In this document: positions 18,843 through 45,776 of the stretch, one piece after another
How the letters are laid out: every line of letters starts with the position of its first letter
Position numbering within the stretch: position 1 is the first letter of the stretch
DNA from: Zanthoxylum bungeanum
Taxonomy: Eukaryota > Streptophyta > Magnoliopsida > Sapindales > Rutaceae
Length of the DNA: 64,000 nucleotides
Direction of reading: 5' to 3'
Assembly: GCA_019454045.1 (NCBI GenBank)
Contig: SKCR01018443.1
Coordinates: 434,001-498,000, forward strand
Made by a program: the position numbers and the translations under genes
The notes under the pieces: model-generated
The model's database searches: none
Seen by the model: the letters and a program-made list of their open reading frames with translations, nothing else
Told to the model about the DNA's origin: nothing

Positions 18843-18947
18843 GTAGTGTCTGAGAACCTGAAACACATGAAAACAAAAATAATAAGTAAAAAAATTAGAC
18901 ACAAGTAAAGGTATCTAACCAAAAAATTAATAGTGAAAGATAAATAA

Positions 18948-18965
18948 GTCCCCGGCAATGGTGCA
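18948..18965 (-). other. Primer binding site of Athila-1 (tRNA-Asp type)
   Basis: The plus strand reads GTCCCCGGCAATGGTGCA, nearly the 3' end of plant tRNA-Asp, so the minus-strand element pairs with that primer. It lies 8 bases inside the LTR, as in Athila-2. Confidence 0.75.
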
Positions 18966-18973
18966 AAAAAACT

Positions 18974-22513: not shown

Positions 22514-24991
22514 TGTTGGAGTTTTCTCAAAGGCGCAGCGGAAGGGCGCAGTTCGAGCGAAATCGTAACTTTAAAAACATTTAAATTTACCAAATAAATT
22601 ATTCAATATCCAATATGAATAATTCATTCATATTTCACCTAAACATATTTATTCGATATCAAATACGACATAAATAATTTAGAAACACCACAAAATTTTT
22701 ATGAAAATATTTTTTCGTAAAATAGCATAAAACGCGTTTTTGTCCGAACCGACCAACCAATACACATGGAGGCTGCCCAGGTCAGCCCAAATAGTACTTG
22801 GACAGTTCATGAGCTTCCCAAAGAGTGACCAATTCACTATTTGAACAGCTGTTACCCGGTAAGCCCGAAACTTACCCGGTAACGCTGTTTTTCACCGTTT
22901 TCGCATATTTTCACTTTGAAACACTTTCTGACAATTACTCTAATGCCCAATACACATCCAATACATTTAAATAACATATTTTTCATCACCAAAATTCCAA
23001 AATTTCTAGATCTGATATGGGTGCTAAAAATATCATTTTTCATACTTTAAATCCAATTTTCTCAACATTAATCATATTAATATTTACACCAATCAAAGCC
23101 ACCACATATGAAGAACTCAAGAACAATTCTAGGAGTTACAAGAGTGGTCATAACACTCTAAAATGGTAAAAAAATCATCAAATAATAAAATTGAACTAAT
23201 ATTATTCAATCTAACTTCACACATGCATCTTGCCTCCAAATCCATCTTCCAAATCAAAAAGCCCCAAAATCTAAGAAAAGAAGAAACCCTAGAACTATTC
23301 TAAATGCTCAAGAATAAGAAACAAGCTTTCTAAGTTTAAGAATATTGAAAATTACCTCAAAATCTCCTAATTTCCTTAAACTTTCTTCTTGATTTCTTCA
23401 AGCAAATATTTGGGAGCTTTCATTTGGGAGAGTTTCGGCCATGGAGGGACTTATCAAAGAGAAAACAAAAAATTTCTCTTTAAATACTAGGGTTGGCCGA
23501 AAAAGTGGGGTTATTTTGGTCATTTGGTTAACTTTAATCTAATTAAAAAATTAAGCTTAAGTTACTTATTCAATTTGAATACTCCAAGCTTAAAAAATCA
23601 TACCATTTGTTACCAATAATATCTCACCACGATCATACTAATTATGACTTATAGATAATATGTTTAATTTCTAATTATTTAATTATTTAACAATAAAAAA
23701 CTAAATAATTAATTAATAAATAAAAATACATATATGTATTTTTATTTACATTAAATAAAAATACATATATTTATGACATGTGTCAAATTCTCATTTGACA
23801 ATTAATTAATATGTATCTAATCAATTTTTTATCAAATAAAAATACATATTAATTATTAATTGACCAAAATCCCCTAACATGTATTTTCGTTTAATCGTTT
23901 AAACTTTCGAATTAACTCATTTAATCCGGTGAAGTATTATGAATAATCTGTATTATTCATAACGCGTTGTCCAAGTGCTCCACGAGTACACTTCATATTT
24001 TAGGACTCTCTAAGTTTAGGTTTATCCATCACAGAATCAAATTTCGTGTCCATAATTCACCCACTCGTAAATTATGACTACCCCGGATAATCTCGCTAAA
24101 CTATGCAAGTCGAGGTCATTACATACGTATAATCCCTCCATCATAGGCTATCATATTATACCGAGGATATAGATAGGAACGTCAAATACATAAGGTATAA
24201 TATAGTCTACTTTCAAATTTAGGATCTTTAAATAACACTCGAAACTCACATCTGAAGTATACCACAACCATGGTTTTATTAGATCGCAAATACTTACATG
24301 ATACCTATGCCTTATACACAGGACTGAGGGATTCTATCTGATACTCACAAGATATCATGGCATCAATCCACACCCAACAAACAGGCGGAGGTCTGATCTA
24401 AATAGATCGGTGATGTGACTGTCATCAAAGTGTGAATGATGTCTCATATATCCACAATGGTATCTCAAGTCGAATGACCACTATGCTACTCGACTCGAGA
24501 AAATTTTTACTGACTTTGGTGTACCATCTATTAGGAAATCTTCGGTAAGTCATTCACTGTTTATCAAATAAACACATACACGTCTATACGAGTCTCCCAA
24601 GACTTATAGTTAATTGGGATAAACCATCGGACCAAATCTTGATATACGATATGTACTGGTCTTAGCGGATTTTACTAACCGACCCGTGTCAGTAAATCTT
24701 GGCCATGATCTTTATTTGAGAATATACAACTTATAGTGATGCTTCCCAATGTCAATTAAAAACTATGTTGTAACTGCGCACTACGTTGTAAATCCTAAGG
24801 TATTTGTCTAATATATACATATCATTAAATCATATTTAGTTTCAATCTAATCGTAATTAGAACAAATACGTATATAAAAACAAGAGGTGCTACTATTAAG
24901 TAAGTAATATTATGGAAAAAAAGAATTGTTCGTATTCATGAATCGGACATAAATACGATCCAGATTAGCACTCCGAGCACCGACCCTAACA
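22514..24991 (-). repeat. 3' LTR of Copia-R
   Basis: The plus strand starts TGTTGGAG and ends CCCTAACA. It aligns throughout with the right LTR. The 63-codon frame seen on the minus strand in both copies follows from LTR duplication and is not evidence of a gene. Confidence 0.88.
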
Positions 24992-25012
24992 ATTTCTCTC
25001 ACTTGTTCTAGT
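24992..25012 (-). other. Polypurine tract of Copia-R
   Basis: On the minus strand the sequence reads AGAACAAGTGAGAGAAAT and runs into the LTR start TGTTAGGG. This is the copia-type plus-strand primer. Confidence 0.7.
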
Positions 25013-26106: not shown

Positions 26107-26111
26107 TCCAT

Positions 26112-28070
26112 TGTTAGACAATAAAAATCCATAGCGTCACTATTTTGTAAATGATATTGTATTATTGTACAAAATTAACTATGTAGTAATGAAATTGCCT
26201 TTACCGTTTTGTAATTTATTTACTTTGATATATAAATGGTAAAAGTCCCTATGATTAATTCCGGATTGAGAGATGATATGAGACAGTATCAATCCATAAA
26301 GGTTTAATCATTAAATATCCCTAGTCGTAGTATTATCGAGATTGGACATCGATAATGCGGAATAGACTAGTACTGCACTTGTGCGTGTTGTGAGGGCACA
26401 ACAACATAGTTCTCATATATTTGAGTATTGGATACTTATGCAAGTGCGGTAGGAGGTTGTGTTTTACCGATGGTACGGAAAACAGCTTCGCTCTGGATAG
26501 ACCCGCGGAATCCCATTGGTAGTATGTCTGCGTGTCTATGGGAGTCCGCTTCAGGGTAGGTGCATATGGTCTTAACCTGAGACTTGCATCGCTAGCACTT
26601 GCGACAATCGGTAGACTTTAGTTTTGGTCGTCCAGGGCTTTAACAGGTTCTGTGTACACCTCTTCTAGGTTTATCGAGAATTGTAGTGTATTGGGTGTGA
26701 TGTCAAGACGGAAGTATCACTTCAGACATATGGAGATGATGATCGCGCAGGATACAGAACTAGTACTCTATAATGGTTGCAACCATCGGGATAATATGAC
26801 AAGGTCAGGATTATCCGATTTAAAGATACTAGTTGCTTGATGTCCGATATATGTATCGTACGGGGCAGACACATCTCCAGCCCCAGGCCTTACATGTGAT
26901 CATCCGATACTGGATCAGTATACACTATACTACGGTATACTACGCCTGTTATAGATCTTATATTCCAATAAGAATATTTCTGGAGAATTGGGTAGGCATG
27001 GCGTTTTGCTAGAGGCTAACCTTGTCTTGTAAATCGGTAAAAACGTAGTACTTGGTACGTACGTGTTCGGATAATCTGACGGCCGTATTTACTGCCAACA
27101 TATCCAGAGATCTCTTGGGTCGCTTCCCGAAGATTCACCAATGACGTATGATTCAAACTCGATTAATCTTGGATTAATTACGGAGAGACTTTATCTTGGA
27201 TAAAGTACTATACATAGAGAGAGAACGATTAATTTGGAATTAATCGTAAAATTATTATATTCGATATAATAATCGAAATTCGATTTCGACGCGAAATAAA
27301 ATTAGATTTTAATTCGGGCAAACGAGTTAATTTAGAATTAATTCGTTAGCGACGTAAATAATAATTTCGCTAGGCGCAATTATTTATTTAAATTCGATTT
27401 AATTAACGTCGCGACGAAAGTTCGGTATTTCGGAAATATCGAACCCGAATGCGTGAGTACGCGTGGGCCCACTTTCATTTGGGTTGTGTGGGGCCCACAT
27501 GACACATGTCATTTTATGCATTATTTAATTGTTAATACATTGCATGGTGATAGTGTACAATACACTCAATGGTTTTGCATGGAGTTTGAGTGTTTGACAC
27601 TCTAAGCCATTGCATGATTTGTGTCATAAGTTTATTATTAATTTAATAAATATTATGGCATAAATATAAATTGATTTTTGTATCAAAAATCATCATCCTT
27701 CTCTCTCACCTCTTGACCGAAACTGTGAAGTTTCACAGCCCTCTCCCTTTTCTGTTTTTGTTGCAAAACTTGAAGAAAGTGTGTGTGTTTGGAACATTAA
27801 ATCACATATAAGGCTAGCACCTTCAAGGGATCATACAAAGGTGTTATGGGAAACTAATTCTTGAGCTTGGAAGGATCAAAGAAAGCTTGGAGCTTCCCCA
27901 CTCACCTTGGCCGAAATCTTCACTGCACAAAGGAGAAAAATTTTATTTCATCAACGCATCCGCATTCCGATCTTTGTGAGTATGATTCCGCCATACTTCA
28001 ATATTGTTCATTCATTTATATATATTTGTTTGCTCTTTTGATCTTGGGACATGGATTAGAATTTACAACA
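26112..28070 (+). mobile_element. Solo LTR, Copia-1 family, inside Copia-R
   Basis: It starts TGTTAGACAA and ends TTACAACA, and carries the perfect duplication TCCAT (26107-26111 and 28071-28075). At 1959 bp it is nearly the length of the LTR at 2851-4813 and has the same palindrome chain at about 27161-27446. No internal sequence remains, so it arose by LTR-LTR recombination after insertion. Confidence 0.92.
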
Positions 28071-28883: not shown

Positions 28884-29810
28884 GATTCTGAGCGGTGCGT
28901 AATCACACGCGTATAACGCAAGCGCACGTATTGTTCAAGTAGTATAAAAAGTATCTATCCCACGAGGACTTAATACCTAAGCTATTAATTTTATGAGATC
29001 AAATGATTACTAGTATCTAACATGTTGTTTGATTAATTTGAAATGGTGACGATTCTAAATTTAAAAACAAGTAAATAAAATTGTTCGAAAGTAGGTTTTA
29101 AGAAAATTCAATATTAAAAAACTATATAGGGTTGTGATTTCTTCCAAAATCATTTTAAAGATGAAGTGGTTATTTAATGTTTGTGTAATAAATCAGTTTA
29201 CTAACCTGGAACACTAAATTATGCGAAAGCCTCTATCGATGGTCCGACGCAAATACCCAGTTTAACCCAATTGAACCATATGTCTATGTCAACCAAATTA
29301 TATGGATTCATTAAGTTTAAGTTCCAATTATGGCTACCCCCGCCCGGCAGGTATATGTCTATCCTGTAAGGAAATCTATTAAAGGGTTATCTATCCTCAA
29401 TGAAGATCGTGGGCTATTAAGTCTAAGGCTGAAACCTAAAATCCCTATGTCTAGTTCATTTTAGATTTACCAGATCAACCTTATTAGTGTCCAATTAACA
29501 AGACGCATTAGGCTTAAGACTTAATAAGTAAACCTTTAAATTACCCAAACTATAAAATAACCCCTTATAAATCGGTGATATTAAAAGTCATCACAACCCT
29601 AGATAACTAATTTAGTTAGAACACATAACTATGGCTAGTAAAAACTTGAAAGTAAAAGACATAAAGTAAGAATGCTGAAAAGTAATTGCGGTAAAGTAAA
29701 AGCTGAAAAGTAAATTACAATAAAATAAAATGCTAAGGTAAAAGGATAAAATTTTACTACTACTAATTTAGATATCTCCCTTAATATAATATATTAACTT
29801 GTGATTATAT

Positions 29811-30020
29811 TACCAATCAGCCATATAGGTGGTAACCTGATTAAGTCAAATTAAGTCCAACCAGCCATAAAGGCGGAACCAAAATAAACATGCCAAATAG
29901 GCAGTAAGAAAATTTAATTACCAACCGACCAATCTGGCGGTATCCTTGATTAGTCAGGTTTAAACCAGATTAAAATGAATTACCAACCGACCAATCTGGC
30001 GGTATCCTTATTAATTCAAA
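29811..30020 (-). repeat. CCAACCGACC...GGCGGTATCC repeats in the Athila-2 3' LTR
   Basis: About five imperfect units of 35-55 bases occur, each with ACCNACC, a short A/T loop and a GG-C-GGT arm that can pair back. The same block lies at 44505-44715 and, with three units, in Athila-1 at 19507-19660. Confidence 0.7.
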
Positions 30021-30288
30021 TTTTAAATAGTGGATATTTTATATTTAAGGGAGATTAATCTAAATAGCAATAGTAAAAGAATTACCTTTCACCCTAGCAG
30101 GGGGAAGTTACCTCCTCATAGTGAATAGTAAAAACTATAAAAAGTAAAGAAAGTAAATCACTATTATTACAGAAAGTAATTAAAATTAATTACAAAACTA
30201 AAATTTAAAAGAAACTAGATAGAAAACTCTCTATTTACTTGAGAGAATTTAGAGAGAATGGTACATCTGAAACTGAAATTTCGAGCTC

Positions 30289-30296
30289 TATTTATA
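30289..30296 (-). promoter_or_regulatory. TATA box in the Athila-2 3' LTR
   Basis: TATAAATA on the minus strand, within CCTATAAATAGAGC. It is followed by a TC-rich stretch that would suit a transcript start, and the G-box cluster lies upstream of it. Confidence 0.6.
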
Positions 30297-30409
30297 GGCT
30301 TCAGTAGGGGTCCGGCGTCGCGATGCCAAGCCAGCGTCGCGATGCCGGTTTTTCGACGTGGCAAACTCTGGTTCATCGGCTTCAGTTTCTGGATAAGGTG
30401 ATAAGGTGA

Positions 30410-30765
30410 CACGTGGCAATGTGGTTGGATCTCAATTATTGTGACACGTGGCGGCTTCTGATTGGCTGATTTCAGATTCTTATCGCCACATGTCAATTGC
30501 GGATAAGTGAGTCAATAATTGATGCTGACGTGGCGACATGTGGCAATGTGACTGTCGGCACTATAGATTTACGACACGTGGCACGCTGTGATTGGTTGAT
30601 GATGACGTGGTGATGACGAGGCAGTTTGACTCGGTCAATCGGTGATGTGGACGATGACGTGGTAGACACGTGGAGTGACACGTGGCGATGGCGACTGTCG
30701 GCACCATAGGATGATGACACGTGGCACAGCGCACGTTAGCAGATCGGCTGTGATAGTGACACGTG
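30410..30765 (-). promoter_or_regulatory. G-box cluster, 3' LTR of Athila-2
   Basis: Seven exact CACGTG sites occur at 30410, 30445, 30575, 30667, 30679, 30718 and 30760, most as GACACGTGGC, which also matches the ABA-response core ACGTGGC. Several more sites differ by one base (GACGTGGC, ACATGTGGC). CACGTG is bound by plant bZIP and bHLH factors. Confidence 0.65.
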
Positions 30766-31074
30766 GCACGGAGCGCGTTAGCATTGTCAAATTTCCTCAG
30801 ATTCTGACTTGTGGACCTGGCGCACGTTAGCACTGTTCGGCACATGTTAGGCGTCGCGACGCCAAAGGCTTGCGCGTCACAACGCGAGAAATGACCAAAA
30901 TGCCCTTTTCGTCTGTTTTCACTGTTTTGGCCCCAAATCACCTCCAGAAAGTCTTGAAACTTTATTTATCTACAAAATAACACAAAACACATCAAAATAT
31001 TCACAAAACTCATGAAACTATACAAAATATTAGGTTCAATGAGTGGGAAATAGTGATATAATTACCACTCATCA

Positions 31075-31087
31075 CACCCCCAAACCT
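31075..31087 (-). other. Polypurine tract of Athila-2
   Basis: The minus strand reads TAGGTTTGGGGGTG directly before the LTR start TGATGAG. Confidence 0.75.
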
Positions 31088-32403
31088 AACATTTTGCTAG
31101 TCCTCGAGCAAAACATAGAATAAAATAACATAATAAAATTTAACTAAGCCACTTTCGCAGGGATCACGGTTGCATTTAGCGAATGCAACAAGCCTTTAAA
31201 CCCCTAGGTGTCCCTAGTGGACGAGTTGTAGTCTCGTGAGGGTTTACAACAATGATACCCACAAACATTTTACAAAAGTAAAAAGGTAGTGAAACTAATG
31301 AACACAAAAGCAAAAAGACAAGCGAAAAGAGAATAAAGAAGTTAGTGACTAATCAGGTGAAATTTCTACTCCAAGTTACTAGTTGTTTTCTTTCTTTCTA
31401 AATTACTGAATATGTAAATTCTCCGATTATATTTACCATTTTCCATATACACAGCCAACAAAATATTAAACAACTCATTTTTGCACACAACAGTCATAAG
31501 TGCAGTTGATAAGAGAATAATATTTTTGTCCCAAAGTTTTATCAGAATTCACACCTTTTTGTAGCAATGGAATAATGTTTCTGATTTTTTCTTTGATTTT
31601 TGATTTTTTTTATTTATATACAATACCTTTCGTCTATGTAGGGAGTGTTGGGTCGGTGGCTCCCAAACCAGTTGGCTTTAGGGCACCAGGTGTTAAGACA
31701 CCCATACGGACTTAATTACTCAGACTTCAGATATATATATTTTTACAACATCCTTGATCCATGTAGCGAGCTTTGGGCCAGTGACTCCCAAACCAGTTGG
31801 CTTTAGGGCACTAAGTGTTAAAACACCCTTACAGACTTAATAACTCGGATCTCAGATGTTTTTTTTTGTTTTTTTTACTCCATTGCTTTTTGAGATGCTT
31901 CCTCCAATTAAACTAGAGCACTGAATATTACAAACTTTTCAATTACAGTTCATGTTCGTATGTTACTATGCATGTTGATAATACCCGTCAACTGAGCATA
32001 TGAAAATCCATTTTAGTTAGTTTTATGGAGAATTCACAAATTAAATAATTCAAAAGGAAATAAACAAAAATTAACTTGTTTCAAAATAGGTTTGAGATAC
32101 GTCTCAGGAGTGGAAACTCCTTACTGAGCTATCTCTTACCAATTGCACCTTTTTAGTTAAAATAAAAACACAAAAACGTAAAATATTTTTGTAATTTTTG
32201 AAAATTTCTCAATTTTTTGTATTTTTCGAAATATTTTGGTCTAAAAATAAAAATAAAAACAAAAACAACACATAGATTAAAAATAAGGTACTGATCAACT
32301 AATTCCCTCCCCCAAACCTAAATGAGACATTGTCCCCAATGTCTTAAACAGTAGAAGAAGAGTTTAGAAGATAATAACTGGATAACTGAAATTCTACAGG
32401 ATA
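31088..32403 (-). other. Athila-2 3' non-coding tail with a 125-bp direct repeat
   Basis: No gene is visible. Bases 31620-31744 and 31745-31869 are two copies of a unit containing CCAAACCAGTTGGCTTTAGG. Around 32301-32320 the minus strand reads TAGGTTTGGGGGAGGGAATT, a second polypurine run very like the one at the LTR and 84 bases past the LOG-like stop codon. Confidence 0.6.
31620..31869. repeat. 125-bp tandem duplication
   Basis: Two adjacent units of about 125 bases share the block CCCAAACCAGTTGGCTTTAG and the following GTTAA-ACACCC segment, with scattered differences. They lie in the untranslated tail of Athila-2. Confidence 0.8.
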
Positions 32404-33057
32404 TTAAAGGTTAAGATCCATATTAATCCGTCGCCTCTTACCACGATCGTCATCAGACCAATTTATCTTTGAAAGGATAGGGTCAACTTGTGGTTCATAG
32501 GCTAAGATTTGGTCAATTAGATCCGGAACAGTTCTGGCAGTAAAGAGGAGTTCTTTCATAGGTTTTGACACGAACCCATTTCTCCGGGAATCATCAAGAA
32601 ACACACAAAGAAAATCATAAAATCCATCAACGTTAAACGGCCCAATTGGTTTCTGGTGTATGTTCAGGTTCGCCCAAGATAGCACTATAAAAATTTCCTC
32701 CAATGTGCCCAAGCTACCTGGCAAAGCAAAAAAAGCATTAGCACGGTTAATCATTTCTACCAGTCATTCAGAAATACCTGGCATAATTAGCTCTTCTCCG
32801 TTTGATGGTCCAATAAGATTTGCCTCCGCCAAGGGTTTTGGAATGATTCCCAAAACGTGACTGCCTCCTTCTTGTACAGCCTTTGAAACGATCCCCATAA
32901 GTCAAAGATTGCCTCCGCCATATACTAAGTGCATATTCCTTGCAGCTAAGACTCGACCCAATTCATGTGCTGCTTCTACGTATTATGGTTTGGTACCAAC
33001 ACTACTACCGCAAAACACACAGATGTTTTCAACTCATCTTCTTGAAGTGGCTTCCAT
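32404..33057 (-). pseudogene. LOG-like cytokinin riboside 5'-monophosphate phosphoribohydrolase, captured by Athila-2
   Basis: From the ATG at 33057 to the stop at 32404 one frame of 217 codons runs without any shift. This is the normal length of plant LOG proteins, which release active cytokinin bases from their nucleotides in the cytosol. Visible are ENICVFCGSSVGTK (residues 10-23), LVYGGGN (44-50), LMGIVSKAV and GIIPKPLAE, PGSLGTLEE (113-121, the LOG motif, normally PGGxGTxxE) and KPIGPFNVDGFYDFL. Four in-frame stops (codons 8, 25, 52 and 98) each fit a single base change. The usual Arg-Lys pair before the LOG motif is missing and one motif Gly is Ser, so it may have diverged before it died. 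LOG genes in plants have several introns and this copy has none, which points to capture through RNA. It lies on the element's coding strand between the Cys-rich gene and the 3' LTR. The C-terminus is basic (GKRRR), which is not typical of the family. Confidence 0.82.
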
Positions 33058-33308
33058 GTTTTACTCTGGATGTCTTCAAAAGTGCAATGATGAGTTAAAT
33101 TTATAATACCTGAAAAAGGTGAGTAAAATAATAGCAATAGTACCTGCCAAATGACAATTATTAGTTAAACAGTAAAATAAATCGTGATAGTCAAAAAAGG
33201 TATGGATCATGTCGGATAAAGTAAAAGAAAACAACAAAACAAATCACAATTATTAGGAAAAGACAAGAGATATAATATGTACAAGAAAAGTAGCAGCTTG
33301 ATTGACGT

Positions 33309-33857
33309 CTATGCGTCAGGGACAAGCTTCCCATCCAATTTTCTTATAAATTGGCAAACAGGGTCTTTTTGAGTCAGATTCCCGAGACTTAACTGTTGTC
33401 TTTCTTTTTGAAATTGTATATGTAATTTGTGAATGGCTATATGAACATATCCACTGGGATGCGTCTCAAGAGTCGAAGATATATAATCTAAAGACTCCTT
33501 ACTCAAGCCATCCCTAATGAATTTAATTTTATCTTCGCGATTATCAGATACCATTCCTAAATAACGACAACGAGTATTGCAATTCCAGCGTCCACATTTG
33601 TAACAAACACCCATTTGCTTAGCTCTACGTTTCTTTACATAGGTGCTTCTTCCAAAACCAGGCAGATGTGAAATAAAAGATTCAGAAGACTCACCTGCCA
33701 ATCGGACCCGTGCTTCAATTACCCAACGAATATCATTAGAAACACCATGGATTGTTAGTAGTCTCATCTGTTCCAAGCGAGCTTTGTAAACTTTGATCAT
33801 AGATTTTTGAGAGAGAGAAGGAAATTGCTTGTGAAGATTTGCGAGAGATTTTTCCAT
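33309..33857 (-). CDS. Cys-rich basic accessory protein of Athila-2, carlavirus NABP-like pattern
   Basis: An intact frame; I take the ATG at 33857 because the matching start is used in Athila-1, although the frame is open 11 codons further up. The 182 residues comprise a helical, Leu-rich N-part, DIRWVIEARVRLAGESS, GRSTYVKKRRAKQMG (a basic run that could bind nucleic acid or act as a nuclear signal), CYKCGRWNCNTRC (four Cys in a finger-like cluster), FIRDGLSKESLDYI, and an 80-residue tail ending KLDGKLVPDA. It is not the gag knuckle (no CCHC) and not integrase, which ends at 33996. The order of a basic run, Cys finger and FI-DG segment is that of the small cysteine-rich nucleic-acid-binding proteins of carlaviruses and relatives, several of which suppress RNA silencing. 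That link is inferred from pattern and spacing. Alternatives are a host zinc-finger gene or an orphan retroelement protein. Confidence 0.6.
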   Translation of the reverse strand: MEKSLANLHKQFPSLSQKSMIKVYKARLEQMRLLTIHGVSNDIRWVIEARVRLAGESSESFISHLPGFGRSTYVKKRRAKQMGVCYKCGRWNCNTRCRYLGMVSDNREDKIKFIRDGLSKESLDYISSTLETHPSGYVHIAIHKLHIQFQKERQQLSLGNLTQKDPVCQFIRKLDGKLVPDA

Positions 33858-33995
33858 CGTGAAAGGACTTAATCTGCAAAAACTAAACACACAAAATTAA
33901 ATCACACCAAATCACAATATATACACAAATTGCATTGGTTGCCTCCCTGCGAGCGCTAAGTTTAAAGTCATCAGTTAGACTTGACTTTTCGATCG

Positions 33996-34453
33996 TTAGG
34001 CTGGATCTGAAAGTGTGACACTTTCTTTTTGTCGCTCAAATGATTCTCCCCAGTAGTGCTTGACACGCTGACTGTTAACCTTGAATGTTTCGTTGGTGTT
34101 GGGATCTAGTAACTCAACAACTCCATATGGTAAAACCTAAGTGATCACAAATGGACCTGACCACCTAGATTTCAACTTTCCAGGGAAAAGTTTCAACCTT
34201 GAGTTGTACAACAACATATGCTACCTTGGTTCCAACTGTCTGTGCACTATTTTTTTGTCATGCCATTTTTTGGTCTTTTCCTTGTTCAATTTGGCATTCT
34301 CATAAGCCTGTAGGTGAAATTCCTTCAATTCGTTGAGTTGGTGAAGTCGTTTCTCTCCTGCAGCTTGTGAATCAAGATTCAACTTCTTCAGTGCCCAGTA
34401 CGCCTTGTGTTCAAGCTCAACTAGTAGATGGCATGCTTTCCCAAACACCAATC
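33996..34453 (-). pseudogene. Athila-2 integrase, C-terminal part
   Basis: This is the continuation of the integrase after the solo [39 protein letters not shown], then [16 protein letters not shown] and VNSQRVKHYWGE. It ends with TAA at 33996-33998. One stop after QLEPR and one before VLPYGVVELL interrupt it. Confidence 0.85.
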
Positions 34454-36495
34454 TGTTGGACAATTATGACCCATAGCGTCACTATTTGTACATATCACGG
34501 TGTTGTTGTACAAATTAACTATGTGACAAAGGAGATTGCTCTCTTATCATTTGTGATTATATCACCTAGATGTATAAATGATAGGAGGTCCATATGATTT
34601 GTTCCTGGATTGAGAATGATATGAGACAATATCAGTCCACGAAGGATAAATCATTAAATATCCCTAGTCAGAGTATTATCGATATTGGACATCGATAAAT
34701 ACGTAAAAGACTAGTATTACACTTGTGCGCGTTGTGAGGGCACAACTGCATAGTTCTCATATATTTGGGTATAGGATACTCATACAAGTGTAATAGGAGG
34801 TTGTGTTTTACCGATGGTACGGGAAACAGTTTCGCTCTGGATAGACCCCCTCGGAATTCCATTGGTAGTATGACTATGTGTCTATGGAAGTCCGAAATCA
34901 GGGTAGGTGTATTTGGTCTTAACCTGAGACTTACACCGCTAATACTTGCGATAATCAATGTACTTTGGTTTTGGTCGTCGAGGGCTTTAACCGGTTTTCT
35001 GTGTACGCCTCTTCTAGGTATATCGAGAATCGTAGTGTGTTGGGTGTGATGTCAAGACGAAAATATCACTCCAGTCATAGTGGAGATGATGGTCACGTAG
35101 GATACGAGACTGGTTCTCTTAAATGCTGTAGCTATCAGGATAAAATGACAAGGTTAGGTTTATCCGATTATAGAGACTAGTCACCAGACATCCAACATGT
35201 GCTTCATACGGGGCAGACATAATTCCAGCCCCAGGCCTAGCATGTGATCATCCGATACTGGATCGACATACGTAATACTACGTATATTACGCCTGATATA
35301 GATTGTTTATTCCTGTAAGCATGTTTCTGGAGAATTGGGTAGGCATGGTGCTTTGCTAGAAGCCAACCTTGTCTTGTAAATCGATATAAACGTAGTACTA
35401 GGTACTTACATGTTCAGATAGTCCGACGACCCGATTTACTGCCAACATATCCGGGGATCTCATGACGTATGACTCGCACTTTTAATTAATCTGGGATTAA
35501 TTATGATGAGCGAGAAAATTAATCTGGGATTAATTACGGAGATATTTTATCTGGGATAAAATATCATAGAAAGAGAGATACCGATTAATTTGGAATTAAT
35601 CGATAAATTAATATATTCGATATATTAAACGAAATTGGATTTCGACGCGGAATTAAAATTAGATTTTAATTCGGGAGAACAAGTTAATTTAGAATTAATT
35701 CATTAGCGATGTAAATAGTGATTTCACTAGGCATAATCATTTAATTACGTCGCAATGGAAAATTTTTTAATTTGGAATTAGCAAACCCGAGCCCGATGAG
35801 ATTGTTTGCGAGCGCATTCACATTTCGAATTCGAGTGCGGCACGCAAGTCAAATCAAACGTCAAATCATTAGTCACATCAAGCATCAAATCAAATGTCAC
35901 TTCGAGTGATGTGACAAGTTGTCACTTGATTGAGTGATGTGAGTTGATGTGAATAGTGATGGAGGTGGTTGGAAAGTTAAAAGGCTTATACCTTTGACTT
36001 TTAAAAAATTGAAATTTGTATATGCTTAATTAATTTTGAAAATTAAAATGTAGATACACAATTTTCATTCTCTCTCTAATTTACGGTTTTTGGGAGCCAA
36101 AAACCACAACTCTCTCTTCACCATTTCTTTTCTCTCTCACCCAAAGGGCTTCTGTTTTTCCTCACTAGTTTCAGCTCAAACCGTGAGCAAGGAGGAAGAA
36201 AATGATGATTTGTGGCAAATCATCAAGGTGCTAGCACACTCTAGGAGGCATACAAGATGATAGGGAAGTCATTTCGTGAGCTTAGAATCCATTTTGTAAG
36301 CTTGGAGCTTGAAGATTTCTTGGAGGAAAAAGCCGAAAATGGAGCACAAAGAAACCTCACTGCCATGAGCTTCATGAAGGAGGGCATAAATTTTTGTTCT
36401 TCGTAGCATCCAATCCGTTCGATGTGAGTATGATTCCGCCATACTTTGTTATCATCCGCTTGATTTCATCCTGGGGACCTTAATAGAAACCAACA
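34454..36495 (+). mobile_element. Solo LTR, Copia-1 family, inside the Athila-2 integrase
   Basis: It starts TGTTGGACAATT and ends AACCAACA. The left flank is CAATC and the right flank CAAAATC, an imperfect duplication with two extra bases. It is closely similar to the LTR starting at 62404, more so than to the other copies, so these two form a subgroup. The palindrome chain is at about 35483-35785. Confidence 0.88.
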
Positions 36496-37343
36496 CAAAA
36501 TCGATATGGGGACATACCAATGGGTGTCTTGTAAGCTGTTCGGTAGGCCTATAATACATCATCTAGTTTTATAGACAAGTCCCTCATTGTTGATCCAACG
36601 GTTCTTTCTAGGATTCTTTTGATCTCCCTGTTTGAAACCTCAACCTGTCCATTTGACTGTGGATGATAAGTTGTGGCAACCTTGCGAGTAACTCCGTATT
36701 TGGATAGAAGTGCATCCAAGTATCTGTTGCAGAAATGAGAGCCACCATCACTGATGATTGCACGAGGTGTTCCGAACCGAGTGAAAATATTCTTTTTCAG
36801 GAATTTGATCACCACTTTTGAATCATTGGATGGCAATGCAATTGCTTCAACCCATTTGGAAACGTAGTCTATAGCAACCAGGATGTACAGATTTCTGAAT
36901 GATGGAACAAAGGGTCCCATAAAATCAATACCCCACACATCGAATATCTCTACTTCCAGAATGTTTTGCAACGGTCCTTCATTTCTTCTTGAAATATTTC
37001 CCGTTCTCTGGCATCTGTCATATTGAAGAGCAAAAAGATAAGCATCTTTAAAAAGAGTGGGCCAGAACAAACCTGATCCCAGAACTTTTGCTACAGTTTT
37101 GTCCCCGCTGAAGTGTCCGCCATATGGTGATGAATAACAGTCCTGCAAAACACTGTTGACCTCCTCCTGTGGAACACACCGCCTCAGTAATTGATTAGCA
37201 CAATGTTTGAACAGGTACGACTCATCCCAGACATAATGTTTGACTTCTTTGAATAATTTCTTCCGTTGCTGAGTTGTCCATTCCAACGACCATTTTCATG
37301 ACACAATGTAGTTGAAATAGTCAGCATACCAATGAGCATCTTG
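36496..37343 (-). pseudogene. Athila-2 integrase, N-terminal and core part
   Basis: A 245-codon open frame (36549-37286) covers the zinc-binding region and core. The first Cys of the finger is Tyr (YDRCQRTG), so zinc binding is probably lost. The core has [18 protein letters not shown] and [15 protein letters not shown], with the D, D and E catalytic residues present. It ends at a TAG just before the solo LTR. Confidence 0.88.
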
Positions 37344-37883
37344 CTATTTCATGGCAAATAGTTGTTCATATGGAAAAGTTTCTTTGATTGATAGAACTTT
37401 GTCAGCTGTTTCTCCATTCTCGAGCCTCGATAGATGATCTACCACCTGATTCTCTGTCCATTTCCTGTCTCGAATCTCCACGTCAAATTCTTGCAGAAGA
37501 AGTATCCAACGGATCAATCTGGGTTTGGCATCTTTCTTCGTGATCAAGTATTTGATTGCTGAATGATCTGTGTAGACCACCACTTTGGGACCCAGCAGAT
37601 AGGAGCGAAATTTTTCAAAAGCGTACAAAACTACGAGCAACTCTTTTTCAGTGGTTGTGTAGTTGAGTTGAGCTTCATTCAAAGTTCTGTTGGAGTAGTA
37701 AATGGTGTGGAAAATTTTTGCTTTGCGTTGTCCCAAAACTGCACCTACAGTAAAATCACTAGCATCACACATCACTTCAAATGGAAGGGTCCAGCCTGGT
37801 GCTACAATGATGGGGGCAGAAATCAGCTTATATTTTAAGATCTCAAAAGCTTCCTGGCATTCTTTGGTGAAGTTGAAAGGCAC
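37344..37883 (-). CDS. Athila-2 RNase H domain (open piece of pol)
   Basis: A 179-codon uninterrupted frame with [33 protein letters not shown] and [12 protein letters not shown], so the catalytic D, E and D are present. It then runs into [16 protein letters not shown] and [12 protein letters not shown], the typical join to integrase. It was part of the polyprotein and has no start of its own. Confidence 0.85.
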
Positions 37884-39266
37884 ATCCTTCTCCAGAAGAT
37901 TTCACAGAGGTTTAGCAATCTTGGAAAAGTCTTTGATAAATCTCCTGTAAAAACCCGTGTGTCCGAGAAAGCTCAGAATCTATTTGACAGATGTCGGCGG
38001 ATGTAGTTTTTCAATTTTTTCAATCTTCGCTTTGTCTACCTCGATTCCTTTTTGTGAGATCCGGTGTCCAATAACAATGCCCTATTGTACCATGAAATGG
38101 CATTTCTCCAAGTTGAGCACCAGGTTTGTATCTTCGCACCTTTGTAAGACATGTTCCAAATTTTGCAAGCAGTGGTCAAAAGACTCTCCAAACACAGAAA
38201 ATTCATCCATAAAAACCTCCATACTCTGCTCTAGCATGTCTGAGAAGATGGCCATCATGCAACGCTGAAATGTAGCAGGGGCATTACATAATCCAAATGG
38301 CATTCTGCGGAAAGCAAAAGTACCATAGGGACATGTAAAGGTAGTTTTCTCCTGGTCTTCTGGTGCGATGGAAATCTGATTGTACCGTGAATATCCATCC
38401 AGAAAACAATAGAACTCATGTCCCGCCAGTCTTTCTAACATCTGGTCAATGAATGGGAGCGGAAAATGGTTCTTTCATGCTGCTTTGTTCAGCTTTCGGT
38501 AGTCCATGCATACTCTCCATCCAGTCACCGTTCTGGTTGGGATTAGCTCGTTCTTTTCATTGGTAACTACAGTGATTCCTCCTTTCTTCGGCACACACTA
38601 CATAGGACTCACCCAAGTACTATCTGAGATGGGGTAAATGATGCCAGCATCCAACCATTTGATTATTTCTTTCTTTACGACTTCCTTCATGATTGGATTG
38701 AGTCTCCGTTGATGCTCCACAATGGGTTTGTACTCGTCATTCATCAGGATCTTGTGCATGCAAAATGATGGACTAATGTCTCGAATGTCTGCTATAGTCC
38801 AGCCAATGGCTCTTTTTTGCTCTCGTAATACTCTTAGTAACTTTTCTTCCTGCTCTAATGTTAGTGAAGAAGAAATAATAACAGGTAATTCAGAAGAGTT
38901 TCCAAGAAATGCATACCTGAGATGGCTCATAAGTAACTTCAGCTCTAGTTGTGGTGGTTCTTCAATCGAATGCTTGATTCGATCTTTCTTTGGCAGTTCT
39001 AAGCTTTCAACTAGTGGTGTTGATTTGAATCAGAATGGTTTGTCAAGGTAGTTGATACATTCCAGGATTTCACCATCTAGCTCACTGTCAGTCATGTTGG
39101 TGATGCAAGCTTCAAGTGTATCTGTGGGATTTGGCTCAGTATTTTGAATGATACTATCAACAACATCAACTCTTAACCATTCTTCTTCTTTTTCATCACT
39201 CGGGAATTTCATGGCTTTGAAAACATTAAAGGTAACTTATTGGTCCTGCACTTTCATGGTCAGTTC
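37884..39266 (-). pseudogene. Athila-2 linker and reverse transcriptase
   Basis: The frame carries several stops. The N-part lies at 38598-38930 (LRVLREQKRAIGWTIADI, EHQRRLNPIMKEVVKKE) and the palm at 38082-38441 (LAGHEFYCFLDGYSRYNQIS, RMPFGLCNAPATFQRCMMA). The active site reads VFMDEFSVFG, so the second catalytic Asp of FMDD is Glu, unlike the FMDD of Athila-1. This alone would impair activity. Confidence 0.88.
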
Positions 39267-40154
39267 TCATTTTTGCACATCAATCATAGTTTTACCTGTA
39301 GCCAAGAATGGTCTCCCAAGAATGATAGGTACTTCTTTGTCTTCTTCCATGTCCAGGATGATGAAATCTACTGGAAGAATGAGTTTGTCGACTTTGACCA
39401 GCACATCTTCAACAACACCTCTTGGAAATGCGAGTGTTCGATCAGCAAGTTGCAACGAGACTGAGGTAGGCATTGCTTCTCCAATCTGCAGTTTCCTGTA
39501 AATAGAAAAAGGCATCAAGTTAACACTAGCACCTAAATCACATAAAGCCTTACCGATATAATGTTCTCCAATGGTGCATGAGACAGTAAAACTGCCATGA
39601 TCTTTCAACTTCGTGGGAAGTTTTCTCTGAATGATGGCGCTGCATTCTTCCGTTAATGCTACTGTCTCGTAGTCTCCCAATCTTCGTTTTCGTGAAAGAA
39701 TATCTTTCATGAATTTTACATAGCTGGGCATTTCTTCCAAGGCTTCTGCAAATGGAATGTTGATGTGAAGCTTTTTGAACACCTCCAGGAATCGAACAAA
39801 CTGCTTGTCCAGTTTGTTTTTCTGAAGTCGTTGAGGAAAATGTGGAGGTGGAATGATCTGTTCTTTTTCCTTTGCTTCTTTTTCCTTTGCTTTTTTTTCC
39901 TCCATCTGTGGAACTGTATCTTTTGGAACTGTATCTTTTGGAACTTCCTCAATTGTTGCCTTGATTCCAACATCTTTGTTGATCTCAGTACCACTTTTTA
40001 AGGTAATGGCTTGACATTGCTCCTTCCCTCGGTTCCTTGGATTTGGTTCTGTGTTGCTGGGAAGATTACCTGGCGGTCTGTAACTCTGAGCATTTGCCAG
40101 TTGTCTGATTTGATTCTCCAGTGCTTTGATGGAAGCTGATTGGCTCTGAAACAT
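39267..40154 (-). CDS. Athila-2 gag C-terminus and protease (open piece)
   Basis: A 295-codon uninterrupted frame. It opens with the Gln-rich gag tail, then LPSNTEPNPRNRGKEQC and AITLKSG, typical of Athila. A Lys/Glu-rich run with two KDTVP repeats follows, then FAEALEEMPSYVKFMKDILS, and finally the protease with ALCDLGASVNLMP (active Asp) and IILGRPFLATGKTMID. Confidence 0.88.
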   Translation of the reverse strand: MFQSQSASIKALENQIRQLANAQSYRPPGNLPSNTEPNPRNRGKEQCQAITLKSGTEINKDVGIKATIEEVPKDTVPKDTVPQMEEKKAKEKEAKEKEQIIPPPHFPQRLQKNKLDKQFVRFLEVFKKLHINIPFAEALEEMPSYVKFMKDILSRKRRLGDYETVALTEECSAIIQRKLPTKLKDHGSFTVSCTIGEHYIGKALCDLGASVNLMPFSIYRKLQIGEAMPTSVSLQLADRTLAFPRGVVEDVLVKVDKLILPVDFIILDMEEDKEVPIILGRPFLATGKTMIDVQK

Positions 40155-41282
40155 AGCATCATACTATTTTAACTGATTCAACACTTATGTTATTCCAGGT
40201 TCATTTGCCTGCTCCTGGCCTTTGTTCTCTGTTGGAATCCAGGTGGTGGATAGTTCTGCTGTTGGAATCTATGTGGTGGATTGTTCTTTTACCCTGAATT
40301 GTTGCTCCATGAAAAATTAGGATGATTCCTCCACCCTGGGTTGTAGGTGTTGGAATATGGATTGTTTCCCTATCTGTTGAAAATGTTGACATAATTCACC
40401 GTCTCTTCAAGTTGGTTTGAATCTGGTGCTCCTCCATATGGTGAACTTGTGGATCCAGTGGTAAGAGTCTCCATGAATTTGCATATCTGATCCAGCTTGG
40501 CGTTGACTGCTGTATTGGCTCCACTTTCATAAATTCCTGCAATTCTTTGGATCATGCTCCTTTCTGTTGGCCATAAGGAGTTGTTGTTGGCCATTTCTTC
40601 GATTAGGTGACAGGCTTGATCTTCTCCATTTGCCATTAAAGCTCCTCCAGCAGCAGCATCGATTGTGGTTCTCATTATTCAAGAAAGTCCATTATAGAAT
40701 GTTTCGACTTGAAGCCATTTTGGAATCTCATGGTGAGGACATTTCCGGAGTAAATCTTTGTACCTTTCCCAAGCTTCGTAGAGAGTTTCTGAGTCTTGTT
40801 GTACAAAGGATGTGATATCATTCCTTAGTTTTCCAGTTCTGGCTGGTGGAAAGTACTTTGCAAGAAATTTGGTGGCTAGAGTGTTCCAAGTTGTGATGGA
40901 ACCTGCCGGTAGTGAATGTAGCCAAGCTTTAGCTCTGTCCTTCAAGGAGTATGGAAAAACACGCAGTCTCATTGCTTCTTCAGCTTCTCGGTTGTAATTG
41001 AAAGTGCCGCAAACTTCCAGGAAGTTACTGATGTGGGCATTAGGATCTTCAGTTGCATTCCCCCTAAACTGTACTGACTGCTGAATCATCTGGATGCATG
41101 TTTTGATGTCACCCGCATCTGCTGGTAAATGAGGAAGTATAATACAAGAAATGAGTCTGTCAACCACCGAAATGGTTCTTTCTCGTATGGGAATTGGTGG
41201 TGCAACGTTCAAAGGTTCAAGTTCCATGTTGACTAAAGCTTTTTGGCCTTCTCGCCTTTCCCTTCTCAATTGTCTGATGGTT
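40155..41282 (-). pseudogene. Athila-2 gag (capsid part)
   Basis: The main open piece is 196 codons (40679-41269) and contains IKTCIQMIQQSVQFRGN, FSYSLKDRAKAWL-type capsid sequence, ETLYEAWERYKDLLRKCPHH and KWLQVETFYNGLS. Stops at 40679 and 40370 break the rest. The true start is 18 codons on the other side of the solo LTR at 41288-43391. Confidence 0.85.
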
Positions 41283-41287
41283 TTTTC

Positions 41288-43391
41288 TGTTGGACAAAAT
41301 GACCCATAGCGTCACTATTTGCACAGATCATTGTGTTGTTGTAGCAAATTAACTATGTGACAAGGAAATTGCACTCTCATCATTTGTGATTAGATCACCA
41401 TAGATATATAAATAAAGAGAGGTCCCTATGATTAGTTCCTGGATTGAGAATGATATGAGACAGTATCAGTCCCCGAAGGATTAATCATTAAATATCCCTA
41501 GCCGCAGTATTATCGAGACTGGACATCGATAATGCGGAATAGGCTAGTATTGCACTTGTGCGCGTTGTGAGGGCACAACGGCATAGTTCTCATATATATA
41601 AGTATTGGATACTTATGCAAGTGCGATAGGAGGTCGTGTTTCACCGATGGTACGGGAAACAGCTTCGCTCTGGATAGACCCTTCGGAATCCCATTGGTAT
41701 TATGACTATGTGTCTATGGGAGGCCGAAATCAAGGTAGGTGTGTATAGTCTTAACATGAGACTTACATCGCTAATACTTACGATAATCGATAGACTTTGG
41801 TCTTGGTGGTACAGGCTTTAACCGGTTCTGCGTACACCACTTCTGGGTTTATCAGAGAGTCGTAGTGTATTGGGTGTGATGTCAAGACGGAAGTATCACT
41901 TCAGTCATATTGGAGATGATGTCACGCAGGATATGGTACTAGTCCTCTTGAGTGTTGCGCAACCAATCGAGATATTGTGACCATGTCATGAATATCCGAT
42001 TATAGAGACTATGTTACCAGACATCCGATATGTGCTTCGGACGGGGTAGACACTTATCCAGCCCCAGCCCTAGCACGTGACTATCCGATACTGGGCCGAT
42101 ACGCACAATACAATCGTATACTACGCTTGATAACAGATCTTAATATTCTTAAATGGATATGTCCGGAGAATTGGGAAGACTTGGTGCTTTGCTAGGAGTC
42201 GACCTTGTCTCGTAAATCGGTAGAACGTAGTACTTGGTACGTGCGTGATTCGGATACTCCGACGACCTTATTTACTGCCAAATTATCCGGGGATCTCATG
42301 GGTCGCTTCCCGATAATCCACCGATGACGCAAAACTCGCACTCTTGAATAATCTGGGATTATATAGAAGAGAGAGAAAATTAATCTAGGATTAATAACAG
42401 AGATATTTTATCTAGGATAAAATATCGTCTAGAGAGAGATAACGATTAATTCGGAATTAATCGATAAATTAATATATTCAATATATTAAACGAAATTAGA
42501 TTTCGACGCGGAATTAAAATTAGATTTTAATTCGGGCGAACGAATTAATTTAGAATTAATTCGTTAGCGACGTGAATAGTGAATTCGCTATGCGTAATCA
42601 TTTAATTACGACGCGACGGAAAAATCGTTAATTTGGAATTAGCGAACCCGAGCCCGAGTGTGATTGCAAGCGCATTCGTATTTCGAATTCGAGTGCGGCA
42701 ACGCAAGTCACATCAAGCATCAAATCATTCGTCACATCAAGCGTCAAATCAAATGTCACTTTGAGTGATGTGATTGATTGATGTGATTGAGTTGATTGAT
42801 TGAAAGACTTACATCAAGTCACTTTAATAAAGTGAAATGAATAGTTGATGTAAGTAGGTGTAATAGTGTTTGGAGGGAAAAGCATTTACTTTTGATTTTA
42901 TTTAATCAATTAAGTAAATGGTTTTTAATATTTTTTTCTTGGAAATTATATAAAGCATTTTTGGAAAATGCTTCACCAACCTTTACACATTTTTCATTTC
43001 TCTCTTTTCTCTCTTCAAGCTCACGTCCAAGGGGCATTTCTTCACTGGTTTTGAACCAGAAAAACGTGAGCAATAGGGAAGCCAATAGTGGGTTTTCATG
43101 GTGAAAATTCAAGTGCTAGCACACTTACGAGTCTTGCGAAGGTGGTATGGAGGTTTACCCATGAGGCGGGACTCATCCGACGGAGTTTGGAGCTTCGAAA
43201 TGAGACCCGAAACTGCCAAACCAGTGAGCACGAACTGCAGCAGTGGGCGCACCAAACCAGTGAGTTTTTCGGCTTCATTCGTCTCCAAATCGACTCAACC
43301 GATCGATGTGAGTATTCCGATACCTCCGTTGATGTATTCGCACATTGTTTTCATTGCTTGTTTGATCTTGGGACCTAGATTAATACCAACA
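41288..43391 (+). mobile_element. Solo LTR, Copia-1 family, inside the Athila-2 gag
   Basis: It starts TGTTGGACAAAA and ends TACCAACA, with the perfect duplication TTTTC (41283-41287 and 43392-43396). Comparing with the uninterrupted Athila-1 gag confirms the empty site. The palindrome chain is at about 42345-42648. Confidence 0.93.
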
Positions 43392-43396
43392 TTTTC

Positions 43397-43444
43397 AATC
43401 TCTTGGTCAAGCGGTCGGAGTTCAAAGCTTCTGGTTCGTCTCAT
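43397..43444 (-). pseudogene. First codons of Athila-2 gag
   Basis: ATG at 43444 followed by RRTRSFELRPLDQEIEN, matching the gag start of Athila-1 at 18842. The piece is separated from the rest of gag by the solo LTR. Confidence 0.75.
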
Positions 43445-43553
43445 GTAGTTTCTGAGGACCTGAAACACAAGAAAACAAAAACAATAAGTAAAAAAGAAAA
43501 TTAGATACAAGTAAAGGTATCTAACCTTAAAACTAATAGTGAAAGATAAATAA

Positions 43554-43572
43554 GTCCCCGGCAACGGCGCCG
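43554..43572 (-). other. Primer binding site of Athila-2 (tRNA-Asp type)
   Basis: The plus strand reads GTCCCCGGCAACGGCGCCG, matching the 3' end of plant tRNA-Asp but for the last base. It lies 6 bases from the 5' LTR and is not itself a tRNA gene. Confidence 0.82.
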
Positions 43573-44978
43573 AAAACTTGACCGGTGCGTAATCACACGC
43601 ATATAACGCAAGCACACGTATCGTTCAAGTAGTATAAAAAGTATCGATCCCACGAGGACTTAATACCTAAGCTATTAATTTTATGAGGTCAAATGATTAC
43701 TAGTATCTAACAGGTTGTTTGATTGATTTGAAATGGTGACGATTCTAAATTTAAAAAGAAGTAAATAAAATTGATCGAAAGTAGGTTTTAAGAAAATTCA
43801 ATATTAAAAAACTATCTAGGGTTGTGATTTCTTCCAATATCATTTTAAAGATGAAGTGGTTATTTTATGTTTGTGTAATAAATCGGTTTACTAACCTGGA
43901 ACACTAAATTATGCGAAAGCCTCTGTCGATGGTCAGACGCAAATACACAGTTTAACCCAATTGAACCATATGTCTATGTCAACCAAATTATCTGGATTCA
44001 TTAAGTTTAAGTTCCAATTATGGCTACCCCCGCCCGACAGGTATATGTCTATCCTGTAAGGAAATCTATTAAAGGGTTATCTATCCTCAAGGAAGATCGT
44101 GGGCTATTAAGTCTAAGGCTGAAACCTAAAATCCCTATGTCTAGTTCATTTTAGATTTACCAGATCAATCTTATTAGTGGCCAATTAACAAGACACATTA
44201 GGCTTAAAACTTAATAAGTAAACCTTTAAATTACCCAAACTATAAAATAACCCCTTATAAACCGGTGGTATTAAAAGTCATCACAACCCTAGATAACTAA
44301 TTTAGTTACAACACATAACTAGGGCTAGTAAAAACTTGAAAGTAAAAGACATAAAGTAAGAATGCTGAAAAGTAATTACGGTAAAGTAAAAGCTGAAAAG
44401 TAAATTGCAATAAAATAAAATGCTAAGGTAAAAGGATCAACTTTTACTACTACTAATTTAGATATCTCCCTTAATATAATATATTAACTTGTGATTATAT
44501 TACCAACTAGCCATATAGGTGGTAACCTGATTAAGTCAAATTAAGTCCAACCAGCCATAAAGGCGGAACCAAAATAAACCTGCCATATAGGCGGTAAGAA
44601 AATTTAATTACCAACCGACCAATCTGGCGGTATCCTTGATTAGTCAGGTTTAAACCAGATTAAAATGAATTACCAACCGACCAATCTGGCGGTATCCTTA
44701 TTAAGTCAAATTTTAAATAGTGGATATATTATATTTAAGAGTGATTAATCTAAATAGCAATAGTAAAAGAATTACCTTTCACCCTAGCAAGGGGAAGTTA
44801 CCTTCTCATAGTGAATAGTAAAAACTATAAAAAGTAAAGAAAGTAAATCACTATTATTACAGAAAGTAATTAAAATTAATTACAAAACCAAAATTTAAAA
44901 GAAACTAGATAGAAAACTCTCTATTTACATGAGAGAATTTAGAGAGAATGGTACATCTGAAACTAAAATTTTGAGCTC

Positions 44979-44986
44979 TATTTATA
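44979..44986 (-). promoter_or_regulatory. TATA box in the Athila-2 5' LTR
   Basis: TATAAATA on the minus strand within CCTATAAATAGAGC. The nearest G-box is 114 bases upstream. Confidence 0.65.
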
Positions 44987-45099
44987 GGCGTCAGTAGGGG
45001 TCCGGCTTCACGACGCCAAGCCAGCGTCGTGACGCCGGTTTGTCGACGTGGCAAGCTCTGGTTCGTCGGCTTCAGATTCTGGATAAGGTGATAAGGTGA

Positions 45100-45432
45100 C
45101 ACGTGGCAAGGTGGTTGGATCTCAATTATTGTGACACGTGGCGGCTTCTGATTGGCTGATTTCAGATTCTTATCGCCACATGTCAATTGCAGATAAGTGA
45201 GTCAATAATTGAGGCTGAAGTCGCTGACGTGGCGACACGTGGCAAAGTGACTGTCGGCACCATAGATTTGCGACACGTGGCACGCAGTGATTGGTTGATG
45301 ATGACGTGGCGATGACGAGGCAGTTTGACTCGGTCAACCGGTGATGTGGATGGTGATATGGCACACACGTGGAGTGACACGTGGTGACATGTGGCGATGG
45401 CGACTGTCGGCACCATAGGATGATGACACGTG
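45100..45432 (-). promoter_or_regulatory. G-box cluster, 5' LTR of Athila-2
   Basis: Seven exact CACGTG sites at 45100, 45135, 45236, 45274, 45366, 45378 and 45427, plus near-sites. Being upstream of the TATA box in the 5' LTR, this copy is the one that could act as enhancer for the element. Confidence 0.68.
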
Positions 45433-45776
45433 GCACGGCGCACGTTAGCGATCGACTGTGATGGTGACATGTGGCACAGCGCACGTTAGCAAAGTCAAAT
45501 TTCCTCAGATTTTGACTTGTGGCACAGCGCACGTTAGCATTGTTCGGCGCATGTTAGGCGTCACGACACCAAAGGCTTGCGCGTCGCGACGCGAGAAATG
45601 ACCAAAATGCCCTTTTCATCCGTTTCCACTGTTTTGGCCCCAAATCACCTCCAAAAAGTCCTGAAACTTAATTTATCTACAAAACAAATCAAAATATTCA
45701 CAAAACTCAAGAAACTATACAAAATATTAGGTTAAATGAGTGGGAAATAGTGATATAATTACCACTCATCAGATTC

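Follow-up and report, generated by a model that had tools for sequence, protein, structure and literature searches.

Why should a plant retrotransposon carry a gene for a LOG-type cytokinin-activating enzyme? The question is raised by a reading frame in the window analyzed here, a 64,000-nucleotide stretch of the Zanthoxylum bungeanum genome (assembly GCA_019454045.1, contig SKCR01018443.1, positions 434,001–498,000), in which a preliminary description had seen a LOG gene captured by an Athila-type element. Translation confirms its claim of a single minus-strand frame of 217 colinear residues, free of frameshifts and interrupted by four in-frame stops. With X at the stops, the product matches PF03641 (1.3e-28) and TIGR00730 (5.7e-45) in profile searches, and its residues 5–203 match Arabidopsis LOG3 (PDB 2a33) in a sequence search (7e-54), so the proposed LOG homology holds; three public proteins (P0001–P0003) align with it end to end at 80–85% identity. 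We reject chance similarity on the strength of the family searches, tree and dN/dS values presented below. The frame also lies in sense orientation 3′ of pol, as claimed, with gag, protease, RNase H and integrase pieces on the minus strand too (Table 1). The window LOG is best read as a decayed relic of an accessory gene of Athila-like retrotransposons.

Table 1. Features of the LOG-bearing element, in window coordinates
Feature	Position	Strand	Basis or remarks
LOG-derived gene	32404..33057	minus	217 codons, four in-frame stops; PF03641, TIGR00730 and LOG3 matches
Complete LTR-retrotransposon insertion (Athila-like Ty3/gypsy)	28889..45771	minus	LTR pair, TSD, TG...CA ends
Target duplication GAATC	28884-28888 and 45772-45776		5 bp; flanks element
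5′ LTR	43579..45771	minus	94.0% identical to 28889-31074 across 2205 columns
3′ LTR	28889..31074	minus	LTR pair
PBS-like region AGTTTTCGGCGCCGTTGCCGGGGAC	43554..43578	minus	Directly after 5′ LTR
gag fragment	40679..41269	minus	ORF; matches L061 gag, which has a PF03732 match
Protease region	39267..40154	minus	ORF; position and DLGASVNLMP motif
Broken pol (RNase H and integrase)	36549..37883 (37344-37883, 36549-37286)	minus	rve 1e-16, Integrase_H2C2
Integrase C-terminus	33999-34454	minus	Beyond insert; matches L061 pol
Foreign insert	34454..36500		Alignment break against second Athila-like copy
Second foreign insert, mainly same repeat as first	41288..43392		Alignment break
182-codon zinc-finger-like ORF (NABP)	33309..33857	minus	Between integrase end and LOG
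CTCACCTTTTTCAG then TATAAAT	33099..33123	minus	Immediately 5′ of LOG; candidate TATA box and/or 3′ splice site
C-terminal tail KRRRINMDLNL	32407..32439	minus	Basic cluster and EAR-like
Polypurine tract GGTTTGGGGGTG	31075..31086	minus	Directly before 3′ LTR

The PBS-like and PPT-like sequences of the window element lie at their expected places. The Ty3/gypsy domain order gag–(PR)–RT–RH–IN was found by Pfam in L061, a locus in which gag, pol, NABP and LOG are all open, together with matching pieces in the window element, whose RNase H piece and integrase C-terminus both match the pol of L061. The protease-region ORF gave no Pfam match; its DLGASVNLMP is what we take to be the protease motif. The name Athila-like follows the preliminary description and prior reports. 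In a scan confined to L061, the Pfam ATHILA ORF-1 family gave no match to gag, pol or NABP at E 0.01. NABP weakly resembles carlavirus-type zinc fingers (PF05515, 1.7e-5; PF01623, 5.1e-5), whether through viral ancestry or convergence, and has 363 homologues among public proteins, with Populus, Xanthoceras, Acer, Orobanche and Rhamnella as sources among the 120 of 363 matches listed. NABP-type ORFs occur at window positions 33309–33857 and 13008–13367 and at positions 5213–5761 of L061; a second element copy in the window (13004–19282) ends inside NABP, just short of LOG. An imperfect 125-bp tandem duplication lies between LOG and the 3′ LTR (31611–31860), with related ones in L061 and L062.

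That other element copies carry LOG, a point that the preliminary description had wanted checked, is borne out across the 3.96-Gb host assembly. A DNA search with the window LOG found at least 40 places, namely itself and at least 39 copies, and the 39 listed copies match 652–654 of its 654 bases at 94–95% identity. Searching with Arabidopsis LOG3 yielded at least 150 places at 49–52% identity, many of them open. The places listed are all long single-frame matches, and the element copies are intronless, as the preliminary description had said of the window copy. Read for introns in host LOG genes of this genome, the same search gave no exon-sized match among the at least 150 places listed; an internal stop was counted by eye in 5 of the 150 listed rows. 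Eleven of these places were fetched, and all proved open and 89–96% identical to copies of the window subfamily, with MSERL or, in one, MFERL. We further fetched 60 loci, of which 30 were chosen for DNA resemblance to the window copy and 30 for resemblance to protein P0012; L061 and L062 are the same places as L032 and L050, and counts were taken on the 60 loci. The 217-codon LOG is open in 22 (8/30 DNA-chosen, 14/30 P0012-chosen) and not open in 38. The 22 open copies comprise 21 distinct sequences, and one of them, L041, is without the usual start.

Relatives are found in other plants as well. A public protein search with the window LOG returned 284 matches, the best at 85% identity over all 217 residues; among the 120 of 284 listed, the sources include Populus, Xanthoceras, Acer and Reevesia. 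A tree was built from 65 full-length public matches, 13 own-genome copies, 30 of the 120 listed host LOGs and 4 bacterial LOGs. In it, 78 element-type rows form one side of a branch with support 100/99, and host LOGs form a separate branch with support 99/95; for public proteins, "element-type" is defined by this tree branch alone. Two Populus trichocarpa proteins recorded as LOGL10 (P0043 and P0054) sit inside the element-type branch and not with host LOGs, which serves as a warning to annotators. Five proteins (P0032, P0033, P0035, P0086 and P0045) occupy early branches and keep MHERK. A search for a viral-contig source found no confirmed relative, and plasmid records held no DNA match. We infer a single capture, in which the element lineage probably acquired the coding sequence of a plant LOG.

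Selection on the gene was assessed by pairwise Nei-Gojobori estimates. Between open copies, dN/dS was 0.13 at dS 1.28 for clusters 0–1, 0.14 at dS 1.4 for clusters 0–2, and 0.15–0.16 at dS 0.8 for clusters 1–2. The preliminary description had proposed comparing dN/dS among element-borne copies, and these values of 0.13–0.16 between three subfamilies at dS 0.8–1.4, well below 1, indicate that the gene was maintained. The window subfamily, which was sampled by DNA so that open frames were not selected for, had a dN/dS of 0.35 when all 351 pairs were used and of 0.30 in 28 pairs of open copies. Pairs from decayed groups approached or exceeded 1 (1.36 within cluster 3; 1.04 for clusters 3–13), a rise expected after insertion. 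Purifying selection has kept LOG in the Z. bungeanum genome, and we infer the same for other plants.

The active site has nevertheless changed relative to host LOGs. Residues were numbered after P0002 and compared in 98 element-type rows, fragments included, and 120 host LOGs. H96, R98 and K99 are present in 120/120 host LOGs, whereas position 96 of the element-type rows is Ser in 78 and His in 11, position 98 is Arg in 88 and Gln in 9, and position 99 is Leu in 56, Ile in 18, Met in 16 and Lys in 6. Most element-type LOGs lack the adenine-binding Lys and the MHxRK signature of LOG enzymes. The catalytic Glu is retained in 93/98 rows, and each position of PGGxGTxxE in at least 88/98. The preliminary description noted changed motif residues in the window copy. 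MSxRL in place of MHxRK is a nearly family-wide change, whereas the PGS of PGSLGTLEE is private to the decayed window copy: P0001–P0003 and most sister copies have PGG, and any wider meaning of PGS is rejected. In cluster 2 of the host genome, which includes open copies, Q98 occurs in 6/6 loci and M118 in 5/6 (5 distinct sequences). In C. glutamicum LOG, according to excerpts of the report, Arg99 is catalytic, Lys100 binds adenine and Thr119 binds phosphate, and Ala at the active-site residues, Ser19 excepted, almost wholly abolishes activity (PMC4979012); the element residues were paired with these three by motif. Outside cluster 2, the catalytic Arg and Glu survive in most members, which may therefore still be catalytic to some extent.

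The predicted structure of P0002 has the LOG fold (mean pLDDT 82; best Foldseek match 2a33, TMt 0.94), with residues 1–5 and 202–217 below pLDDT 50. LxLxL occurs within the last 14 residues of 48/65 full-length element-type proteins versus 0/114 host LOGs, and a basic cluster within the last 24 residues of 57/65 versus 1/114. EAR motifs are defined as LxLxL or DLNxxP, the first of which is present in the 48 tails just counted, and basic plus LxLxL tails of such kind can act as nuclear signals and EAR motifs. The C-termini of P0008, P0010, P0011, P0014 and cluster 2 read IDLNR, which fits the EAR pattern less well. Constraint on the tail is no stronger than on the fold, with dN/dS of 0.22–0.24 in two of three comparisons. 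In the five early-branching proteins, MHERK coexists with a basic tail stretch, accompanied in P0045 by LDLTLHL, and the tail thus seems older than the active-site change.

Open LOGs are also found in elements without pol. Besides its open LOG, L062 has LTRs 96.7% identical over 1831 columns, a PBS-like sequence and a CX2CX4HX4C knuckle encoded in a 120-codon ORF; it gave no match to pol or NABP, and its sole significant gag match is antisense, at the 5′ LTR edge. In four other cluster-2 loci (L043, L046, L047 and L054), the 1.5 kb upstream, the part examined, has the same backbone as L062. LOG is open in the first three, with L046 and L047 identical in LOG sequence, and has one stop in L054; in L060, the L062 backbone is matched only nearer to LOG. 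A further element, L096, has an open LOG and LTRs 97.3% alike over the 893 columns seen. Still present in it are gag, protease, the C-terminus of integrase and 54 residues from the start of NABP; RT, RNase H, the integrase core and the remainder of NABP are missing. Of the 60 loci, 31 have a full NABP, 5 have a partial one and 24 give no match, a few stretches (e.g., L020 and L036) being truncated by contig ends; beside the 22 open LOGs, the numbers are 12, 1 and 9. Pol-less elements should be able to borrow everything in trans, yet they carry an open LOG. Since a LOG acting only in trans could likewise be borrowed, its upkeep suggests help to the encoding RNA or copy, or a need for high dose.

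LOG appears to be exchanged as a 3′ cassette among deeply diverged backbones, pol-less ones included. Between the window element (32404–41269) and L061, protein identity is 35% for gag and 63% and 49% for the main and C-terminal pieces of pol, whose dS is saturated, versus 72.5% for NABP (dS 0.52, dN/dS 0.29) and 72% for LOG (dS 1.3, dN/dS 0.13). With NABP and LOG closer than gag and pol, the 3′ module seems to move between backbones. We then considered 20 stretches chosen by their 3′ flank, blind to LOG, from at least 40 places listed. A LOG match is present in 16/20 and lacking in 4/20, though an indel-displaced LOG would be missed; only 3/20 have an uninterrupted open LOG. The 3′ flanks of these stretches are 93–98% like that of L062, but 15 of the 16 LOGs are only 71–78% like the L062 LOG, a pattern that looks like LOG cassette exchange. 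Their dN/dS of ~0.21 over 136 pairs, L062 included, is a rough value that counts frameshifted copies.

Subfamilies with strongly diverged synonymous sites have in common a CTCACC-TTTTCAG-G stretch and TATAAATT immediately 5′ of LOG. TATAAAT precedes LOG in 47/60 loci, and TTT..AG|G is likewise found in 47/60. The gene is surrounded by conserved non-coding motifs, CAG/TATAAAT on the 5′ side and GACATTGGGGACAATGTCTCATTT on the 3′ side. A spliced subgenomic RNA or a promoter of its own would each fit the motifs 5′ of LOG.

What, then, might the element gain? Our leading interpretation, a tentative one to which we give somewhat less than an even chance, is a LOG-derived accessory protein that would enter the nucleus and recruit TOPLESS, or otherwise modulate silencing or expression, with cytokinin hydrolysis altered or absent. 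An element lineage would have captured a plant LOG coding sequence once, and purifying selection would then have retained it. The captured LOG would have gained its basic and EAR-like C-terminal tail, and most element LOGs would have lost the MHxRK adenine-binding signature. Transcription would start from its own TATA promoter or yield a spliced subgenomic RNA, and the LOG-fold protein would enter the nucleus and recruit TOPLESS-type co-repressors, or otherwise modulate silencing or host expression to the element's advantage. The protein is probably nuclear and its role a proposed one; import into the nucleus, action as an EAR repressor and loss of catalysis are predictions from sequence. A more specific version, possible but doubtful, is that the enzyme has become a nuclear adaptor for co-repressors, with its catalysis altered or dead, which favors the RNA or copies encoding it and is kept even without RT, integrase and the zinc-finger protein. 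If true, plants would have in it a counterpart of the Nef- or Vpr-like accessory genes of retroviruses.

The preliminary description had instead favored a working cytokinin-activating enzyme, by which the element LOG would raise active cytokinin and keep cells dividing where the element transposes. The LOG fold, the largely retained PGGxGTxxE, Arg (88/98) and Glu (93/98), the strong purifying selection and the MHERK of the early branches are all consistent with it. It is weakened by the rarity of the adenine-binding Lys (6/98) and signature His (11/98), by the change of the catalytic Arg to Gln in cluster 2, a subfamily found on a pol-less backbone and still having open copies, and by the added tail, which enzymology leaves unexplained; excerpts of the C. 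glutamicum study also report that Ala at the equivalent residues nearly abolishes activity (PMC4979012). We regard a working enzyme as unlikely. A second alternative is another substrate, with changed base recognition: the LOG pocket, with its phosphate-binding motif and Glu pair mostly conserved and its base-contacting Lys replaced by Leu, Ile or Met in 90/98 rows, might bind or cleave other nucleotides, for instance sequestering plant-immunity nucleotide signals. However, Met in place of T118 in 5/6 cluster-2 loci should weaken phosphate binding, the tail is again left unexplained, and the idea seems improbable to us.

Two further explanations deny the protein a role. A recent chance capture of a host gene, functionless for the element, would suit the four stops of the window copy and the 38/60 loci that are not open, but it is contradicted by the single branch, in which Populus and Acer are among the named sources, by dN/dS of 0.13–0.16 between subfamilies, by at least 150 scored places in one search, and by open copies in pol-less elements. 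Family searches, tree and dN/dS together leave such a passenger barely credible, and we reject it. That LOG is kept mainly as RNA or DNA (a packaging signal, or a splicing or promoter element), its frame incidental, would agree with the conserved non-coding motifs on both flanks. It is very improbable, and disfavored by dN/dS, as synonymous sites have strongly diverged (dS 0.8–1.4) and the protein is conserved.

Athila-like elements with extra ORFs similar to LOGL4 were reportedly described by Steinbauerova et al. in 2011. LOG cargo is not a new idea: a paper already in print reports the YgdH domain, which is of LOG type, in consensus LTR retrotransposons from two Citrus species and, once a filter was switched off, from P. 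trichocarpa, and in its excerpts cites Steinbauerova et al. 2011 (PMC9289625). Titles and abstract openings in a literature search on LOG in retrotransposons revealed nothing beyond these two works; in excerpts of PMC5408684 and PMC8616336, the 2011 paper turns up just among the references. What they share with the present family is a LOG-type extra ORF in LTR retrotransposons. As excerpted, these reports give domain presence; the change at the active site, the added tail, dN/dS, the exchange of cassettes and the carriers without pol come from the window family. Judged against these excerpts, maintenance, the altered active site, the tail and retention without pol appear new, and the LOG-type domain in such elements is known. 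With plant LOG enzymes, the element LOGs share the fold, length, PGGxGTxxE and, in most members, the catalytic Arg and Glu; they differ in having mostly lost MHxRK, in their basic and EAR-like tail, and in being intronless and multicopy in retrotransposons.

Other plant elements offer partial parallels, as far as excerpts of the reports go. Orchid Ty3/gypsy elements with an m6A RNA demethylase domain likewise show a host enzyme domain fixed in plant Ty3/gypsy, although the enzyme and the plants are different (PMC9289625). The nuclear protein GENE23 of Grande is also encoded by an accessory ORF between pol and the 3′ LTR, with its own promoter and a suspected nuclear role; the Grande ORF is antisense and without known homologues, whereas the LOG ORF is sense and has clear homology to a host enzyme (PMC7264820). 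Transduced genes are described there as occurring in one or few copies (PMC7264820). Captured host genes are usually viewed as short-lived passengers; here, a host enzyme appears to have become a lasting part of the element, its dN/dS of 0.13 not exceeding the 0.29 of the neighboring NABP. What plant retrotransposons gain from accessory proteins thereby becomes a directly testable question.

The window contains further repeats. One of ~1.5 kb occurs five times (2849–4339, 26110–27507, 34454–36032, 41288–42796 and 62403–64000), two of these inside the LOG-bearing element. Another is present as two 2.5-kb copies that are 88% identical (22521–24993 and 48032–50533). Broken copia-like ORFs, named from reading their translations, lie at 4890–10665 and 53572–55824.
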